Positions 1,747 to 36,159 of a DNA stretch of 64,000 nucleotides are shown in pieces. A model generated the notes under the pieces. That model was not told the origin of the DNA. It did not search any database and saw nothing but the letters and a program-made list of their open reading frames with translations. Position 1 is the first letter of the stretch. Every line of letters begins with the position of its first letter. Made by a program: the position numbers and the translations under genes. The stretch comes from Saccharopolyspora ipomoeae (GTDB taxonomy: Bacteria > Actinomycetota > Actinomycetes > Mycobacteriales > Pseudonocardiaceae), in contig NZ_JASAOF010000009.1 in assembly GCF_029952525.1 (NCBI RefSeq), forward strand, positions 1-64,000, in the 5' to 3' direction.

Positions 1747-4221
<2,475 letters not shown>

Positions 4222-4232
4222 GTTCCGGGAGC

Positions 4233-4305
4233 GGGGCGGTTCTTCCTCGAATCACCCATGATCGTGATCCGTTTTGTCCGGTCAATTCGAGGAAGAACCG
4301 TCCCC
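4233..4305 (+). repeat. Conserved-loop hairpin element, copy A
   Basis: A perfect 16-bp stem (4237-4252 with 4285-4300) closes a 32-nt loop that starts CACCCATGATC and ends TTGTCCGGTCA. A GGGG/CCCC extension follows a one-base bulge at 4301. Copy B (31318-31387) has the same loop length and 28 of 32 identical loop bases, but a largely different stem that is again self-complementary. Here the element sits inside an operon, between the oxidase stop and the serine dehydratase start at 4333. Its function is unknown; an RNA processing or attenuation structure or a small mobile element are both possible. Confidence 0.85.
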
Positions 4306-4332
4306 TGCCCCCACCTACCCCCGGGAGCACCC

Positions 4333-5688
4333 ATGACTCTGTCCGTCTTCGACTTGTTCAAGGTCGGCATCGGGCCGTCCAGCTCGCACACCGTCGGGCC
4401 CATGCGAGCGGCGTACCTCTTCGTCGAGCACCTGCGCGCCACCGGGACGATGCCCCGGGTCCGGCGGGTGCGGTGCGAGCTGTTCGGCTCGCTCGGCGCC
4501 ACCGGGCACGGGCACGGCAGCGTCAAGGCCGTGGTGCTCGGGCTGACCGGCGAGCAACCGCACCTGGTCGATCCCGTCGCCGTCGAACCGCACGTCGACG
4601 CGGTGCGGGAGGAGCGCCGGATCAGCCTCGGCGGCGAGCACAAGATCGCCTTCGACCTCGACCACGACGTCGTGCTGCACCGCCGCAAGCGGCTCGACTT
4701 CCACAGCAACGGCATGACCTTCGAAGCCCTCGACGACGACGGCGCCCGTCTGGTCCACCGCGAGTACTACTCCGTCGGGGGTGGTTTCGTGCTCGACGAG
4801 GACGACACCGGACGCCCGGTGCTCGTCGAGGACGCCACCCCCGTCGCCCACCCGTTCGGCACCGGGGCCGAGCTGCTCACCCAGGCGGCCGGCCTCGGCG
4901 GACGGATCAGCGACGTCGTGCTGGCCAACGAGGCGTCCTGGCGGCCCGAGGCCGAGACCCGCGCGCACCTGCTGCACATCTGGCAGGTGATGCGCGAGTG
5001 CGTCGAGCAGGGCGTGCGCACCGGGGGAGTGCTGCCCGGTGGGCTCAAGGTCCGCCGCCGGGCCCGCGACCTGCGCGCGAGCCTCGACGAGCACGCCGAT
5101 CCGATGGAGTGGGTGACCCTCTACGCCCTGGCCGTCAACGAGGAGAACGCCGCGGGAGGCCGGGTCGTCACCGCCCCGACCAACGGCGCGGCCGGGATCG
5201 TGCCCGCGGTCCTGCACTACGCCCACCGGTTCCTGCCCGGCTTCGACGACGACCACGCGGTCCGCTTCCTGCTCACCGCCGGTGCGGTGGGCGTGCTGTT
5301 CAAGGAGAACGCCTCCATCTCCGGCGCCGAGGTCGGCTGCCAGGGAGAGGTCGGCTCGGCCTGCTCGATGGCCGCCGCCGGGCTCGCCGAACTCCTCGGC
5401 GGCACCCCCGAGCAGGTGGAGAACGCCGCCGAGATCGGCATCGAGCACAACCTGGGGCTGACCTGCGATCCCGTCGGCGGGCTGGTGCAGATCCCGTGCA
5501 TCGAGCGCAACGCGGTCGCCGCGATCAAGGCCATCACCGCCGCCCGCATGGCGCTGCGCGGCGACGGCGAGCACCACGTGTCGCTGGACAAGGCCATCAA
5601 GACGATGCGCGAGACCGGCGCCGACATGAAGGACAAGTACAAGGAGACCGCGCGCGGCGGACTCGCGCTCAACATCGTGGAATGCTGA
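4333..5688 (+). CDS. sdaA: L-serine dehydratase, single-chain iron-sulfur type
   Basis: Converts L-serine to pyruvate and ammonia with a [4Fe-4S] cluster. The 451-residue chain joins the beta and alpha domains as in Sda[17 protein letters not shown] near the N terminus is the family signature. Cys336, Cys378 and Cys389 have the 42/11 spacing of the cluster ligands in the Legionella enzyme, and the protein ends in a cysteine (NIVEC), the residue that in that enzyme reaches back into the cluster site. The start at 4333 is chosen because homology begins there and GGGAG lies just upstream; an in-frame upstream ATG at 4258 falls inside the hairpin element and is rejected. It probably drains serine made from glycine and methylene-THF in this methyl-amine pathway. 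Confidence 0.93.
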
Positions 5689-5698
5689 GGAGAATCCC

Positions 5699-6532
5699 GT
5701 GACGTTCACCCTCACCCTGAGCTGCCCCAACCGCACCGGCATCGTCCAGGCCGTCAGCTCGTTCCTGTTCACCCACGGCTGCGACATCGGCGAGTACCGG
5801 CAGTTCGACGACCCGGTGCGCGGCCGCCTGTTCCTGCGCGTGCAGGCCACCGGCGAGGACACCGACCACCTGTCTCGCGAGTTCGCCTCGGTGGCAACCG
5901 ATTTCGAGATGGACTACGCCTTCCACCCGGACCGCCCCGCGCGCGTGCTGGTGATGGTCTCCAAGCTCGGCCACTGCCTCAACGACCTGATCTACCGCTG
6001 GCGGGCGGGCGCGCTGGGCGCCGAGATCGTCGCCGTGGTCTCCAACCACGAGGACCTGCGGCCGATGGCCGAGGCCGCGGGCCTGCCGTTCCACCACGTG
6101 CCGGTCACCGCGGAGACCAAGCCGGAGGCCGAGGCGCAGCTGCTGCGGCTGGTCGACGACCACGCCGCGGACCTGGTCGTGCTCGCCCGCTACATGCAGG
6201 TGCTCTCCGACCAGACCTGCAAGGCGCTGCACGGCCGGGCGATCAACATCCACCACTCGTTCCTGCCCGGTTTCAAGGGCGCCAAGCCCTACCACCAGGC
6301 CTACGACCGGGGCGTCAAGCTCGTCGGCGCCACCGCCCACTACGTCACCCCCGACCTGGACGAGGGGCCGATCATCGAGCAGGAGGTCATCCGGATCGAC
6401 CACACCCACGACCCCAAGGCCCTGCAGACCGTCGGTCGCGACGCCGAAGCGCTCGCCCTGTCGCGGGCGGTGCGCTGGTACTGCGAGCACCGCGTGCTGC
6501 TCAACGGCACCAGCACCGTCGTCTTCCCCTGA
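5699..6532 (+). CDS. purU: Formyltetrahydrofolate deformylase
   Basis: Hydrolyses 10-formyl-THF to formate and free THF. This 277-residue protein has an N-terminal ACT domain (about residues 1-80) followed by a formyltransferase fold. The catalytic region reads INIHHSFLPGFKGAKPYHQA, followed by the TAHYVTPDLDEGPII segment. It begins with GTG at 5699 after AGGAGAA and lies 10 bp behind sdaA, so the two are co-transcribed. In a demethylation pathway PurU returns THF for further methyl-group acceptance, which explains its presence here rather than with purine genes. Confidence 0.93.
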   Translation: MTFTLTLSCPNRTGIVQAVSSFLFTHGCDIGEYRQFDDPVRGRLFLRVQATGEDTDHLSREFASVATDFEMDYAFHPDRPARVLVMVSKLGHCLNDLIYRWRAGALGAEIVAVVSNHEDLRPMAEAAGLPFHHVPVTAETKPEAEAQLLRLVDDHAADLVVLARYMQVLSDQTCKALHGRAINIHHSFLPGFKGAKPYHQAYDRGVKLVGATAHYVTPDLDEGPIIEQEVIRIDHTHDPKALQTVGRDAEALALSRAVRWYCEHRVLLNGTSTVVFP

Positions 6533-7750: not shown

Positions 7751-7789
7751 ACGAGGGCCCCGCACCTGATCCAGGTGCGGGGCCCTCGT
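7751..7789. terminator. Bidirectional intrinsic-type terminator
   Basis: A perfect 18-bp stem (7751-7768 with 7772-7789, core GAGGGCCCCGCACCT) closes a 3-nt loop between two convergent genes, the Rieske oxygenase ending at 7739 and the transporter ending at 7798. It lacks a long T tract, as is usual in high-G+C actinomycetes. Confidence 0.9.
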
Positions 7790-22986: not shown

Positions 22987-23849
22987 CCCTGCGGGCGGAC
23001 GACGAGGACCGTGCACCGCGCGTGGTTCAGCAGCGCTTGGCTGGTGGAGCCCAGGAGCATGCCGAGGAACCCGCCCCGGCCGCGGCTGCCGACCACCAGG
23101 AGCTGGGCGCGGGTGCTCCAGTCCAGCAGCGCGTCCCGGGGGCGCTCGTTGGCGGTCACGCGTTCGACCTGCACGTCCGGGTGCTTCTCCTGCAGACCGG
23201 CCAGCGCCTCGGCCAGCAGGCGCTCGCTGGTGGCCATCTCCGGTTCGAGGTGGCCCAGCCCGACCTCGCGGATCGAGGGCTCGCGGGAGGCGTGCACCGC
23301 CACCAGCCCGACCCCGCGCCACGCCGCCTCGGCGAAGGCCGCGGCCAGCGCCTCCGCGCTGTTGTCGCTGCCGTCGACACCGGCGACCACCGGCCCGTCC
23401 GGCGCGGCCGGTTCGCGCACCACCGCCACCGGGCAGGCCGCGTGCGCGGCGGCTGAGGCGGCCGTCGACCCCAGCAGCATGCCGCCGAAACCGCCACGCC
23501 CGGACGCGCCGAGAGCGAGCATCCGGGCGTCCTCGGCCATCCGCAGCAGCAGCGCGACCGGCTGCTCCTGCACGTACTCGGTGGTGAACTCCAGCCCGGA
23601 GGCGACCGAGTTGACCCGATCTGCGGCGTCGCCCAGCTGGGTGCGCGCCAGCTGGTCGATCTCGGCGAACGCGTCGGGCGGCACCGGCATCCCGGACCCG
23701 TAGAAGCCGCGGAAGTAGGGCTCGGTCGAGGTCACCAGGTACAGCGACAGCTTGCGGGCCGAGGCCACCGACGCGGCCCACGCCGCCGCGCTCAGCGCCT
23801 GCTCCGATCCGTCGATCCCGACCACGATCGTGTTGCTGAGGTCAGTCAT
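22983..23849 (-). CDS. Tandem-domain universal stress protein
   Basis: A 288-residue protein of two UspA domains (about 1-145 and 150-288). Each ends with the ATP-binding loop: GASGRGGFGGMLLGSTAAS in the first and GSRGRGGFLGMLLGSTSQA in the second, fitting the G-x2-G-x9-G-S/T pattern of ATP-binding members. GGGGAG precedes the ATG at 23849. Such proteins in actinomycetes accompany hypoxia or stationary-phase responses. A LuxR-type regulator gene follows upstream on the same strand. Confidence 0.92.
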   Translation of the reverse strand: MTDLSNTIVVGIDGSEQALSAAAWAASVASARKLSLYLVTSTEPYFRGFYGSGMPVPPDAFAEIDQLARTQLGDAADRVNSVASGLEFTTEYVQEQPVALLLRMAEDARMLALGASGRGGFGGMLLGSTAASAAAHAACPVAVVREPAAPDGPVVAGVDGSDNSAEALAAAFAEAAWRGVGLVAVHASREPSIREVGLGHLEPEMATSERLLAEALAGLQEKHPDVQVERVTANERPRDALLDWSTRAQLLVVGSRGRGGFLGMLLGSTSQALLNHARCTVLVVRPQG

Positions 23850-29737: not shown

Positions 29738-29977
29738 ATGTCCACTGTGGATGCTCAGATGCCCGGGGTGTTCTACCGGCGCCCGTCGCCGGAATCCGAT
29801 CCCTACATCGAACCGGGCAGCGTCGTCCAGCCCGGCCAGACGATCGGGCTCATCGAGGTCATGAAGACCTTCAACGAGATCAAGGCCGACAAGCCGTGCC
29901 GCGTCGCGAAGATCCTGCTCGACGACGGCGACGAGGTCGACATCGGCCAGTCGATGTTCGAGGTCGACGAGCCATGA
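29738..29977 (+). CDS. Biotin carboxyl carrier protein (short)
   Basis: A 79-residue carrier made only of the biotinyl domain. EVMKTF holds the biotin-accepting Lys43 in the classical E-x-M-K setting. Ordinary AccB proteins are about twice as long because of an N-terminal region that is absent here. It overlaps accC by four bases. It should shuttle carboxybiotin between the biotin carboxylase and an acceptor enzyme; the nearest candidates are the PxpB/PxpC proteins rather than an acetyl-CoA carboxyltransferase, none being encoded nearby. Confidence 0.9.
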   Translation: MSTVDAQMPGVFYRRPSPESDPYIEPGSVVQPGQTIGLIEVMKTFNEIKADKPCRVAKILLDDGDEVDIGQSMFEVDEP

Positions 29978-31317
29978 GCGGGCTGCGCAGGGTCCTGGTC
30001 GCCAACCGGGGCGAGATCGCCGTCCGGATCATCCGCGCGTGCCACGCGGCGGGCCTCGAAGCGGTGGCGGTGTACTCCGACGCCGACGAGCACTCGCGCT
30101 GGGTGGCCCTGGCCGACGACGCCGCGCACATCGGGCGGTCGGCGGCGCAGAAGTCCTACCTCGACCCGGACGCGCTGCTCAAGGCCGCGCGCACGACCGA
30201 CGCCGACGCCGTGCACCCGGGCTACGGGTTCCTGTCCGAGAACGGCGGTTTCGCGCGGTCGATCGAGGAGGCGGGGCTGGTGTTCATCGGCCCGCGCCCG
30301 TCGGTGCTGGAGCGGATGGGAGACAAGGCCGCCGCGCGCAGCGCCGCCGTCGCCGCCGGGGTGCCGGTGGTGCCCGGCACCGACCCCATCGCCGAGCCCG
30401 AGGACGTGGCGCGGCTCGCCGACGAGATCGGATTCCCGCTGCTGCTCAAGGCCGCCGCGGGCGGGGGCGGTCGGGGCATCCGGCCGGTCGGCTCGATCGA
30501 GGAGCTGCGGGACGCGCTGCCCGCGGCTCAGGCGGAGGCGCGTTCGGCGTTCGGCGACCCCGCGATCTACCTGGAGAAGGCCGTCCCGCGGGCCCGGCAC
30601 GTGGAGGTGCAGGTCCTCGCCGACGACCACGGCGGCGTGGTGCACCTCTTCGAGCGGGACTGCTCGGTGCAGCGGCGCAGGCAGAAGCTCATCGAGGAGG
30701 CCCCGGCGCCCGGGCTGCGGGAGGAGACCCGGCAGGCGATCACGGCGGCGGCCGTGCGGCTGGCCGAGCACGTCGGCTACCGGGGTGCCGGGACGGTGGA
30801 GTTCCTGGTGGACGGCTCGGGGGAGTTCTACTTCATCGAGATGAACGCGCGGGTCCAGGTCGAGCACCCGATCACCGAGATGATCACCGGTGTCGACGTC
30901 GTCGCCGAGCAGCTGCGCATCGCCGGCGGTGCGCCGCTCTCGGTGGATCAGGGCTCGATCGAGCGCCGGGGTGCGGCGGTCGAGTTCCGGATCAACGCCG
31001 AGGACCCGGAGCGCGACTTCGCCCCGACTCCAGGCGGGATCGAGGCGCTGCGGCTGCCGGGCGGTCCCGGCGTGCGGGTCGACACCGGCATCACGCAGGG
31101 GGACCGGATCAGCCCGTTCTACGACTCGCTGATCGCCAAGCTCGTCTGCTGGGGCGAGGACCGCGAGCAGGCCTACGCCCGCGCGCGGCAGGCTCTCGCG
31201 GAGTTCCACGTCGAAGGCGTGGCGAGCACGGCGGGCCTCCACCGCCGCCTCACGGCGGACCCGGAGCTCATGGCGGGGCCCGTGCACACCACCTGGCTGG
31301 AGGAGCGCCTCACCTGA
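29974..31317 (+). CDS. accC: Biotin carboxylase
   Basis: A 447-residue stand-alone biotin carboxylase. VLVANRGEIAVRIIRACHAAG is the N-terminal signature, the glycine-rich ATP loop is AAAGGGGRGIRPV, and the catalytic segment is FIEMNARVQVEHPITEMITG. It makes carboxybiotin from bicarbonate and ATP. It is the last gene of the pxpBC operon and is immediately followed by hairpin element B. No carboxyltransferase beta/alpha pair is in the operon, so its acceptor is uncertain; a role with 5-oxoprolinase is inferred from linkage. Confidence 0.92.
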   Translation: MSGLRRVLVANRGEIAVRIIRACHAAGLEAVAVYSDADEHSRWVALADDAAHIGRSAAQKSYLDPDALLKAARTTDADAVHPGYGFLSENGGFARSIEEAGLVFIGPRPSVLERMGDKAAARSAAVAAGVPVVPGTDPIAEPEDVARLADEIGFPLLLKAAAGGGGRGIRPVGSIEELRDALPAAQAEARSAFGDPAIYLEKAVPRARHVEVQVLADDHGGVVHLFERDCSVQRRRQKLIEEAPAPGLREETRQAITAAAVRLAEHVGYRGAGTVEFLVDGSGEFYFIEMNARVQVEHPITEMITGVDVVAEQLRIAGGAPLSVDQGSIERRGAAVEFRINAEDPERDFAPTPGGIEALRLPGGPGVRVDTGITQGDRISPFYDSLIAKLVCWGEDREQAYARARQALAEFHVEGVASTAGLHRRLTADPELMAGPVHTTWLEERLT

Positions 31318-31387
31318 GGACAGTTTTAGCCATAATCACCCATGATCAACATCCGTCTTGTCCGGTCAATTACGGCTAAAACTGTCC
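31318..31387 (+). repeat. Conserved-loop hairpin element, copy B
   Basis: A 19-bp stem (31318-31336 with 31369-31387, one A:C mismatch that becomes G:U in a minus-strand RNA) encloses a 32-nt loop starting CACCCATGATC and ending TTGTCCGGTCA. The stem begins directly after the accC stop. Compared with copy A (4233-4305), seven of sixteen aligned left-arm bases differ and six of these are compensated on the right arm. It lies between two convergent genes and could act as a terminator here, but the conserved loop argues for something more specific. Confidence 0.85.
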
Positions 31388-31410
31388 CCTGCCAACGACC
31401 GTTGACACCG

Positions 31411-32088
31411 TTACCCGCCGACGGCTCCGGTGTTGAAGAAGTCGAGCGCGGCGGTTTTGAAGGTGCGGCTGGAGACTGCGTTGAGGTGGTTCCGGCGGCC
31501 CAGGGAGATGTGCGGGGCGTCCAGGGATTCGGCGAAAGATCGGGCTTCCGGGGCTATTTCGTCCTGGTCTCCGGAAGCGAAGAGGACCGGGGCCGGGGGT
31601 GGTGGGGTGAGGTGGTGGCCTGCCACGGCGTCGATGCAGGGGGTGAGGTCTTCGGCGGTGAGGGCTCGTTGGACTTCCAGCATCGTGGTGCGGTCGACGG
31701 GCCGGCCGTCGAGGCCGCCGAGGGCCATCGCGCGGACTCGGTCGGGTGCCAGGGCGGCCAGGGTCCAGGCCACGAGACCGCCCATCGAGTAGGCGACCAC
31801 GTCGGCCTGCCGCACCTCGGCCGCGTCGAGGACCGCCAGGACGTCCCGGGCGAGGTCCTCCGGGGTGTAGCCGGTGTCGGGGCGGTCGCTGCGGCCGTGC
31901 CCCCGGAGGTCGGTGACGACGTGACCCCGGTCGGCGACGGCGCGGAGCCAGCCGGTGCGCTCCCACGTGAGTTCCGCGTCGGAGGCGAAACCGTGCAGGA
32001 GCAGCACCGGGCTCGTGCCGGGGACGCCTTCCACCGGGAGGACGGCGTCGTACCAGAGCTTGACGCCGTCGCGTTCGGTGAACGCCAT
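31411..32088 (-). CDS. Alpha/beta hydrolase next to lipoyl protein (AcoC-like half?)
   Basis: A 225-residue alpha/beta hydrolase. LLLHGFASDAELTW gives the oxyanion region, AYSMGG the nucleophilic serine, SGDQDEIAP the acid and RRNHLNAVS the histidine. It starts three bases after the stop of the lipoyl-domain gene and is the last gene of the E1alpha-E1beta-lipoyl operon. In AcoC-type acetoin dehydrogenase E2 proteins a lipoyl domain and an alpha/beta hydrolase domain are fused in this order, so the two genes look like a split version. That equivalence is an inference; an independent thioesterase role is possible. Confidence 0.82.
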   Translation of the reverse strand: MAFTERDGVKLWYDAVLPVEGVPGTSPVLLLHGFASDAELTWERTGWLRAVADRGHVVTDLRGHGRSDRPDTGYTPEDLARDVLAVLDAAEVRQADVVAYSMGGLVAWTLAALAPDRVRAMALGGLDGRPVDRTTMLEVQRALTAEDLTPCIDAVAGHHLTPPPPAPVLFASGDQDEIAPEARSFAESLDAPHISLGRRNHLNAVSSRTFKTAALDFFNTGAVGG

Positions 32089-34543: not shown

Positions 34544-36061
34544 ATGGTCAAGCTGGACCGACTGATCAACGTCCTCGGCGGCTACGGGGCGCGGCTGGTG
34601 TGCGCGCCGCGCAGCCGGTCGACCGAGCTGCGCGCGGTCGCGCTGCACGACCCCGGCGAGCAGGTGCCGAGCGGCGACGAGGTGCTGCTCGCGGTCGGCC
34701 TCGACCGGCGCGACGCCGCCGAGCTGCTGGCCCGCACCCGCGCGGTCGTCGTCGTGTTCCGGCTCGACGAGCTCGACGCCGAGGCCCTGGAGCTCGCCCG
34801 GGAGCGGGAGGTCGCGGTGCTGCTGGTCGACCCCGCCGTGTCGTGGGGCCAGCTCGCCGGGGTGATCTACGGGCTCGTGCTGGAGGGGCGCGAGACCGAG
34901 GCCGGGCGCGGGCCCACGGACCTGTTCGCGCTGGCCGACGCCCTGGCCGAGTCGGTGGGCGGCCCGGTCACCATCGAGGACCACCGCTCCGGCGTGCTCG
35001 CCTACTCGCAGCGCCAGGAGAGCGCCGACCAGGCCCGGCTGGAGACCATCCTGGGCAGGCGCGTGCCGGAGGGCATCCGCCGGGAACTCGTCGAGCGCGG
35101 CGTGTTCCGGCACCTCGCGGCCTCCGACGAGCCGCTGTTCGTCGAGCCCTCCGGCGCCCGCCAGGGCCGGGCCGTGGTGGCGGTGCGGGCGGGCAAGGCG
35201 CTGCTCGGGTCGATCTGGGTGGGCACCTCCGCGCCGCTGGACGCCGAGCGGCAGGCCGCGCTGGTGCAGGCGTCCCGCACGGCGGCGGCGCACCTGCTGC
35301 GCACCCGCGCGAGCGCCGACCTGGAGCGGCAGGTCGAATCGGACCTGGTGATCGGCCTGGTCGAGGGCCACCCCGACGTCGCGACCGCGGTGAGCCGCCT
35401 CGGTTTCCGCGGCGAGACGTTCCGCGTGGTGGCCGTGCAGGCGCACAACCGGGGCGAGCACGACTCGGCGGCGCTGCTGGTCTTCGAACTGGCCACGGTG
35501 GGTTTCGGCTGGTCGCGGCCGGGACGCAGCGCCCTGTTCGCCAACACCGTCTACACGATCCTGCCGCACGACGACGGTGCTGCGGCGCGCGAGTGGGTGC
35601 GCTCGCTGGCGCGCGAGATGCCCGGTGGGGTCGAGGTCTTCGCCGGGATCGGCGGCCCGGCCGGGCCCGACGGGCTCGTCGACAGCCGCCGCGAGGCCGA
35701 CGAGAGCCTGGCGGTGCACGCCGCGAAACCGGCCGGCTCGGCGGCGGTCGTCTACGACGAGTCCTGGCACGAGATCCTGCTGCGCCGCCTCCAGCACGTC
35801 GCCGCGAGCGGCCGCGCACCCGAGCGCGGTCCGGTGGCGCGGCTGCGGGAGCACGACCGGGAGCAGGGCAGCAGGCTGGTCGCGACGCTGCGGGCCTGGC
35901 TGGAGGTGCAGGGAGACCTCGGCGCCGCCGCCGCGCGCCTGGAGATCCACCCCAACACCGTCCGCAACCGGATGCGCAAGGTCGCCGAGGTCGGTGCGCT
36001 GGACCTCGACGAACCGGACACCCGGCTCGCGCTGATCATCGCCCTGGCCGCCGAGCCGTAG
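34544..36061 (+). CDS. PucR-family transcriptional regulator
   Basis: A 505-residue regulator. The N-terminal PucR domain (about 1-120; LDRLINVLGGYGARLVCAP opens it) senses a small molecule, a GAF/CdaR-like middle follows, and the C-terminal helix-turn-helix (LEIHPNTVRNRMRKVAE) binds DNA. Known relatives activate alanine, proline, GABA or purine catabolic genes in response to the substrate. It lies between the 2-oxoacid dehydrogenase operon and the DadA-type gene (99 bp downstream), so it probably controls both. The ATG at 34544 has no close ribosome site; the start is moderately certain. Confidence 0.9.
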   Translation: MVKLDRLINVLGGYGARLVCAPRSRSTELRAVALHDPGEQVPSGDEVLLAVGLDRRDAAELLARTRAVVVVFRLDELDAEALELAREREVAVLLVDPAVSWGQLAGVIYGLVLEGRETEAGRGPTDLFALADALAESVGGPVTIEDHRSGVLAYSQRQESADQARLETILGRRVPEGIRRELVERGVFRHLAASDEPLFVEPSGARQGRAVVAVRAGKALLGSIWVGTSAPLDAERQAALVQASRTAAAHLLRTRASADLERQVESDLVIGLVEGHPDVATAVSRLGFRGETFRVVAVQAHNRGEHDSAALLVFELATVGFGWSRPGRSALFANTVYTILPHDDGAAAREWVRSLAREMPGGVEVFAGIGGPAGPDGLVDSRREADESLAVHAAKPAGSAAVVYDESWHEILLRRLQHVAASGRAPERGPVARLREHDREQGSRLVATLRAWLEVQGDLGAAAARLEIHPNTVRNRMRKVAEVGALDLDEPDTRLALIIALAAEP

Positions 36062-36159
36062 TGGGTTCGGCACAACCGCGGTCGACTCGGTTGTGCCGAA
36101 TCCACAGCGCTCCGGGCGCCGTCGTCGCGCATGCTTCGAGGCGACGAACAGGAGTGAGC

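Follow-up and report, generated by a model that had tools for sequence, protein, structure and literature searches.

The question raised by this locus is why two hairpins within one stretch of the Saccharopolyspora ipomoeae genome (the whole 64,000 nucleotides analysed here, further called the window) have kept their loop while their stems have been remade, a combination that a sequence-only reading of the window took as the signature of a structured RNA or of single-stranded DNA to which a protein binds specifically. Both hairpins, copies A and B (Table 1), indeed exist. Their loops are both 32 nt long and identical at 28 of the 32 positions, while the stems match at 9 of the 16 loop-proximal positions and, by eye, six of the seven changes are complemented on the other arm; the remaining change leaves copy B with an A-C mismatch, where the ortholog of Saccharopolyspora flava has a normal pair. 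Copy A begins 11 bases past the upstream stop (4221), and 28 bases separate its end from the ATG at 4333, also as previously described. With up to three mismatches allowed, the loop pattern is found at two places in the window and is absent from each of 100 shuffles, and for each copy either strand folds better than all of 200 shuffles (z of -7.6, -5.6, -7.9, and -7.5). The remark that no named element carries such a loop agrees with our Rfam search, in which no family reached its gathering score in the window; four other loci gave six sub-threshold, chance-like matches only, five of them to microRNA hairpins at elements. Judging from the sequence, a T run is absent 3' of either copy. The L-serine dehydratase gene behind copy A is followed by a gene with a formyl-transferase domain and a Rieske oxygenase gene. 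Two other strong hairpins in the window (36061-36105 and 7751-7789) lie directly 3' of genes and are likely ordinary terminators; the former has a counterpart in S. flava (C18 of genome G006).

Table 1. Coordinates of the two hairpin copies and of the genes next to them in the window.
Feature	Position	Strand	Basis
Copy A, full unit with outer stem	4225-4312	+	sequence, fold, covariance model (88.6 bits)
Copy A, hairpin (66-nt core 4236-4301)	4233-4304	+	
Copy A, loop (32 nt)	4253-4284	+	pattern match
Copy B, full unit with outer stem	31309-31396	+	sequence, fold, covariance model (88.0 bits)
Copy B, hairpin (66-nt core 31320-31385)	31318-31387	+	
Copy B, loop (32 nt)	31337-31368	+	pattern match
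FAD oxidoreductase fused to aminomethyltransferase (GcvT-like) domain, upstream of copy A	1756-4221	+	gene caller; Pfam DAO, FAO_M, GCV_T, GCV_T_C
L-serine dehydratase, downstream of copy A	4333-5688	+	gene caller; Pfam SDH_alpha, SDH_beta
Biotin carboxylase, upstream of copy B	29974-31317	+	gene caller; Pfam Biotin_carb_N, CPSase_L_D2, Biotin_carb_C
Alpha/beta hydrolase, convergent, beyond copy B	31411-32088	-	gene caller; Pfam Abhydrolase_1

The two copies are members of a large family. In the 6.63-Mb genome the loop pattern (≤3 mismatches) occurs at 73 places and its reversed version at none, and a covariance model built from 30 copies picked by this pattern returned at least 150 copies at E ≤ 0.1, a lower bound because it equals the number of candidates scored (150 out of 1570). 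A covariance-model search of related genomes had been proposed from the sequence alone; with this model, matches were obtained in 7 of the 22 genomes of the genus: 150 in the own genome (G000), 150 in S. flava DSM 44771 (G006), 141 in G003, 34 in G005, 27 in G002, 11 in G010, and 1 in G008, counts that come from a model favouring the element type of the own genome. A family-level search with stricter filters matched 7 of 297 genomes, i.e., six of the genus and, weakly, one outside it (G069, locus L096, E 1e-4), where the stem is different and the loop only partial. The exact arm pattern CAGTTTT-N45-75-AAAACTG was found 101 times in the own genome, 177 times in S. flava, 162 times in G003, 13 times in G010, four times in G008, twice in G009, and once each in G013 and G019, and in none of 39 genomes outside Saccharopolyspora; its backwards control occurred 25 times in S. 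flava, once in G028, and nowhere else. As far as searched, these sequences indicate a repeat family confined to part of the genus Saccharopolyspora. The loop-core pattern with one mismatch was also searched in 394 genomes of the class and matched 18 of them, the own genome included. The 18 places in the 17 other genomes were rejected as members, since nine have a common upstream TTTGTGAACGCGTGCACAAAGAT (family f21) and represent one unrelated locus, and the other nine are, by eye, not flanked by inverted arms. In the f21 genomes (L119-L138), TGTCCGTTTTGTCCGGTCA is present as a single conserved site behind TTGTGAACGCGTGCACAAAG at nine loci, which looks like one conserved promoter/operator region unrelated to the hairpins.

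The length of the unit is nearly fixed. From arm to arm it measures exactly 66 nt in 132 of 136 cases in the examined sequence of the own genome, although one of these 132 belongs to another palindrome family, and in 67 of 79 cases in the examined sequence of S. flava. A basal arm, (R)C(R)GTTYT, is followed by a nine-base distal arm, the loop, and then the inverse; similar basal arms are found across several species and the types of distal arm are few (AGCCATAAT, TCCTCGAAT, AGTGAGAAC, AGTCCAAA, and variants). Over the family as a whole the pairing of the arms reaches ~10 bp further outward before falling to background, and the full unit therefore comprises ~88 bp, with a stem of ~19-28 bp and a loop of 32 nt. 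Eight or more uninterrupted outer pairs occur in 14 of 129 copies; in 300 shuffles there were 5.2 such copies on average and never more than 12. Full pairing of the stem is common but is not required for spread; a hybrid TCCTCGAAT/GTTCTCACT distal stem forms only three of its nine pairs, yet it is present in 12 exact copies and two close variants. The constancy of the loop, as claimed from the sequence alone, holds for a part of it. Among 48 plus-strand copies listed from the 162 in G003, inspected by eye, CCGAAATGTC, or in two cases CCGTTTTGTC, stands behind the 5' half, but this 5' half, which is of the GATC type in 31 copies, is replaced by a variable GC-rich sequence in 17.

Other palindromes occur in the same genome. 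A second family, AGTTTTCATGAAAACT, often paired ~23 nt apart, has 19 exact copies in 400 kb of contig C11 (1-400000, L099-L118; e.g., at 6403, 154531, 228770, and 326319), five in C47 (e.g., at 73995), and none in the window; some of its copies share their outer arms, GGACAGTTTT/AAAACTGTCC, with the hairpins studied here. A third family, built around GAAAACC-GGTTTTC, has one match in the window (at 1480) and 11 in the 400 kb of C11, including those at 23645, 204739, and 278536.

Genes were called by a simple codon-based method, relative to which 137 of the 150 copies could be placed; 13 were left out. None of the 137 lies inside a called gene and nine overlap with the end of one. Convergent genes flank 67 copies, tandem genes 60, and divergent genes eight, with two at contig edges, whereas intergenic length predicts 20.8, 74.0, and 40.2, respectively. 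Of the copies between tandem genes, 49 out of 60 are nearer to the upstream stop, and their loops are oriented in the sense direction in 32 cases and in the antisense direction in 28. The copies therefore collect behind genes, and the transcribed strand is irrelevant.

Individual sites were compared with those of Saccharopolyspora flava, whose sequence shows 94% identity to the window near both hairpins and 90-94% identity to contig C47 in most of the longer aligned stretches. Both flanks were located in the examined S. flava sequence for 43 copies, a set in which the presence of the element is biased because much of this sequence was drawn from around S. flava elements. In contiguous S. flava sequence, 10 of 12 testable sites carry the element and the surroundings of the other two are rearranged; no clean empty site was found among these 12. 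Two further S. flava copies were followed in the opposite direction; in the own genome one site is element-free and lies next to another gene than in S. flava, and the second region is missing. Beside one S. flava element (C16 of G006, L064; compared with C7 of the own genome, L056) there are ~75 extra bases, a short tandem array of units of roughly the GCCTTCGCG type, and another element (C18, near L218) is situated at a synteny break, its flanks matching positions ~60870 and 75338 of C47 in the own genome, 14 kb apart.

The position of most tested sites is thus shared, while the content of some has changed in place. In the 41 pairs analysed (two of the 43 had a block of a length other than 88 nt and were left out), six loops are inverted and five stem types are replaced as a unit. 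Inverted loops are accompanied by an unchanged or nearly unchanged stem at C24:43083, C11:176828, C12:94518, and C33:278864 and by a replaced stem at C33:113893 and C22:227550; at C6:97291, C5:154931, and C3:45139 the stem type is replaced and the loop kept. Two more pairs have a partial stem replacement; at C33:231268 and C4:73895, to which the script had given the label 'same', 6 of 18 distal arm positions differ by eye. For C26:51282 the scripted inversion label was a tie, and this pair, which by eye has the same orientation, was counted as not inverted. Rates of divergence were determined for 30 pairs, i.e., the 31 with the script label 'same' minus C33:231268, with C26:51282 also left out. 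They amount to 39/960 positions for the loop, 21/600 for the basal stem, 32/540 for the distal stem, 60/540 for the outer stem, and 278/2940 for the flanks. The rates for the loop and the basal stem are each below half that of the flanks (Fisher p of 2e-8 and 3e-7, respectively); for the distal stem the p value is 0.007.

In more distant species the picture is more varied. The site of copy A is occupied in G005, by an element with that species' own stem type, and is empty in G003, G002, and G016, where 47-54 bp separate the genes; copy B is absent from G016 and from G003, where there is another hairpin. The sizes of these element-free gaps do not give the exact ends of an insertion. Out of 22 elements of G002, G003, and G005, 11 have both flanks in the examined sequence of the own genome or S. 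flava. Contiguous sequence allowed six of these to be tested; the corresponding gap contains an element for four of them, and for two it is a gap of 1.0-1.3 kb without arms. In the four shared gaps, as judged by eye, the flanks can no longer be aligned, while the loop can still be recognised and each species has its own type of stem.

In our opinion these hairpins are probably a non-coding, REPIN-like interspersed palindromic repeat of ~88 bp with a near-fixed 66-nt core, which is remodelled at the level of the DNA. It is the even orientation, the flipping of loops, and the unit-wise exchange of stems that point to DNA. A mobile past is likely in view of the copy number, the near-fixed length, and the existence of subfamilies; the family may have been spread in an ancestor by an enzyme and would now mostly stay in place. 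The pattern of changes suggests that the match between the arms is kept largely by DNA-level events such as template switching from one arm to the other, to which flipping of the loop within its pair of inverted arms and exchange among copies may be added. The lower divergence of the loop and basal arm suggests recognition of these parts by some protein, either in the past or still today. This low divergence, together with the survival of loops where flanks can no longer be aligned, would be expected under selection on a function, and these are the strongest points in favour of one. When transcribed, a copy would form a strong hairpin behind the upstream gene, whichever its orientation. REP elements are known to alter the balance between genes or to protect the upstream message. 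For copy A, in its probable operon, the most likely effect would accordingly be of this kind, a changed balance of the two genes or protection of the upstream message.

How do the other explanations compare? If the hairpins were a structured RNA, a protein or another RNA would recognise the transcribed loop, and selection on pairing would keep the stem. This is partly supported. Of 570 inner pairs (few with gaps), 10 have changed on both sides where ~1.3 would be expected from the single-site rates, and eight of these 10 still pair, while two have lost pairing; of the one-sided changes, 12 kept a pair, 11 broke one, eight made one, and two left positions unpaired as before. Copy A itself has two fully compensated changes. 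In the 30 copies of the model, 83.9% of the cells pair compared with 74.8% after shuffling, and over the nine distal positions the arms are paired at 0.907 in the own genome (0.739 shuffled) and at 0.934 in S. flava (0.778 shuffled). With the strong folds and the low divergence of the loop, these results uphold the first half of the sequence-only reading, a real multi-copy family with a conserved loop and largely compensated stem changes. Its second half, the step to a structured RNA, is not supported. There is no strand preference between tandem genes (32 versus 28), six of the 41 loops are inverted and five of the 41 stems replaced, a subfamily with three of nine distal pairs has multiplied, and in the 48 plus-strand copies of G003 no covariation of the arms was found (0.889 paired versus 0.904 shuffled). 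Correction at the DNA level yields the same signal as a covarying stem, and the excess of two-sided changes fits what template switching predicts. We therefore regard a structured RNA as unlikely; recognition by a protein, e.g., of single-stranded DNA, is possible.

Slightly less likely still, in our judgement, is that these are ordinary bidirectional terminators that share their sequence by chance. Their position behind genes and between convergent genes would suit terminators, and the hairpin is strong in both strands, but chance hardly accounts for identity, loop included, across at least 150 sites, and neither window copy is followed by a T run. Copy A, moreover, lies between genes of the same direction that are 47-54 bp apart in three other species. 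The copies apparently do not replace terminators either, since a second hairpin is about equally frequent in convergent gaps with the element (11 of 23) and without it (63 of 135), groups that differ in median gap length (210 versus 85). Loop inversion and unit-wise stem replacement between unchanged outer flanks, the near-fixed length, and the similarity of basal arms in several species could instead be ascribed to a recombination system, in which the basal arms or the kernel of the loop are enzyme sites and loops are flipped and stem cassettes exchanged without any movement of the element. This we consider the least probable of the three, because no candidate enzyme was found, because arms only ~50 bp apart are close for the inversion of double-stranded DNA, and because in plastid DNA hairpin loops flip without a dedicated enzyme. 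There is a small chance that a present-day enzyme reads the basal arms or the loop kernel as folded single-stranded DNA and rewrites the hairpins in place, flipping loops and copying stem cassettes between hundreds of sites while the element itself does not move. If so, in-place rewriting would preserve the similarity of the scattered copies although none of them changes its site.

An argument against the REPIN-like repeat that we prefer is that no mobilising enzyme, parent element, or target duplication was found in the genomes searched. The Y1_Tnp transposase has no match in the own genome, S. flava, G003, G002, and G008 and one match each in G005 and G010, and at 20 Y1 loci there is no match to the basal arm, three incidental short matches of other parts of the pattern apart. 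A Y1 transposase gene directly behind the serine dehydratase gene at the copy A locus of G005 (L313, G005:C29, ~536085-536414) was considered and rejected; together with the following gene it reads, by eye, as an ordinary unit of the IS200/IS605 type. A GTAG foot is present in the expected orientation in 7 of 129 copies and in the opposite one in 2 of 129 (background 0.058 per 25-mer), and CGTC/GACG is mildly enriched at the outer ends (25 and 33 of 129, compared with ~16 expected at 0.121 per 16-mer). Membership of the REP/RAYT system was rejected on the lack of a Y1 transposase in the three copy-richest genomes and of a GTAG foot or target duplication. Direct repeats of 3-5 bases at offsets of 0-15 are not in excess around 129 copies, although old insertions could have lost them, and 1.66 Mb of contiguous sequence from two genomes contains no orphan arms in inverted orientation at a spacing of 0.4-4 kb, as expected of a larger parent. 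A search with one copy in plasmids and phages, and with an exact 30-base pattern in viral contigs, gave no match.

A conserved loop on a covarying stem is usually read as evidence of function at the RNA level, and here it is found together with loop inversion and exchange of stem types at chromosomal sites that are shared between species. The family thus offers a natural test, with events that can be counted, of the extent to which template switching and recombination of DNA mimic selection on RNA. For Saccharopolyspora, a genus of antibiotic producers, it adds an intergenic repeat family that may influence the expression of operons. No description of such a family in this genus was found in the open-licence literature searched, so it may have been described elsewhere.

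Short, non-coding, palindromic, and intergenic repeats in many copies are well known in the form of MITEs, BOX, RUP, and ERIC elements, and the family described here shares all of these properties; unlike MITEs, it shows no target duplication and no parent transposon was found. The resemblance to REPINs is closer. Like these, the hairpins are short, extragenic, and numerous, with two conserved inverted ends around a spacer that form a long hairpin, and have a unit length of the same order; compensatory changes, which are common here, are also common in REPINs in the passages of PMC3116915 that deal with their inverted ends and hairpins. The REPIN feature present here is the inverted doublet of a conserved end that forms a hairpin in many extragenic copies. 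Unlike in REPINs, however, the loop is conserved better than most other parts, loops invert, and stem types are swapped at shared sites. CGTC-tagged REPs, which are likewise palindromic and without a known transposase and carry the tag that is mildly enriched at the outer ends here, differ in their dimensions, with stems of 8-9 bp and loops of 4-5 nt in the part of PMC3733652 that describes them, compared with ~19-28 bp and 32 nt here; the words Saccharopolyspora and Actinobacteria are absent from the main text of that paper. Gyrase, IHF, and Pol I are named as proteins that bind REP elements in PMC2817692, a paper in which the word Actinobacteria does not occur. Template switching at inverted repeats, finally, can rewrite one arm from the other in a single event and so produce apparent compensatory changes, as set out in part of PMC8794818; there it is described for the hairpins of RNA genes, whereas the hairpins of Saccharopolyspora are a dispersed bacterial repeat in which the loop inverts as well.
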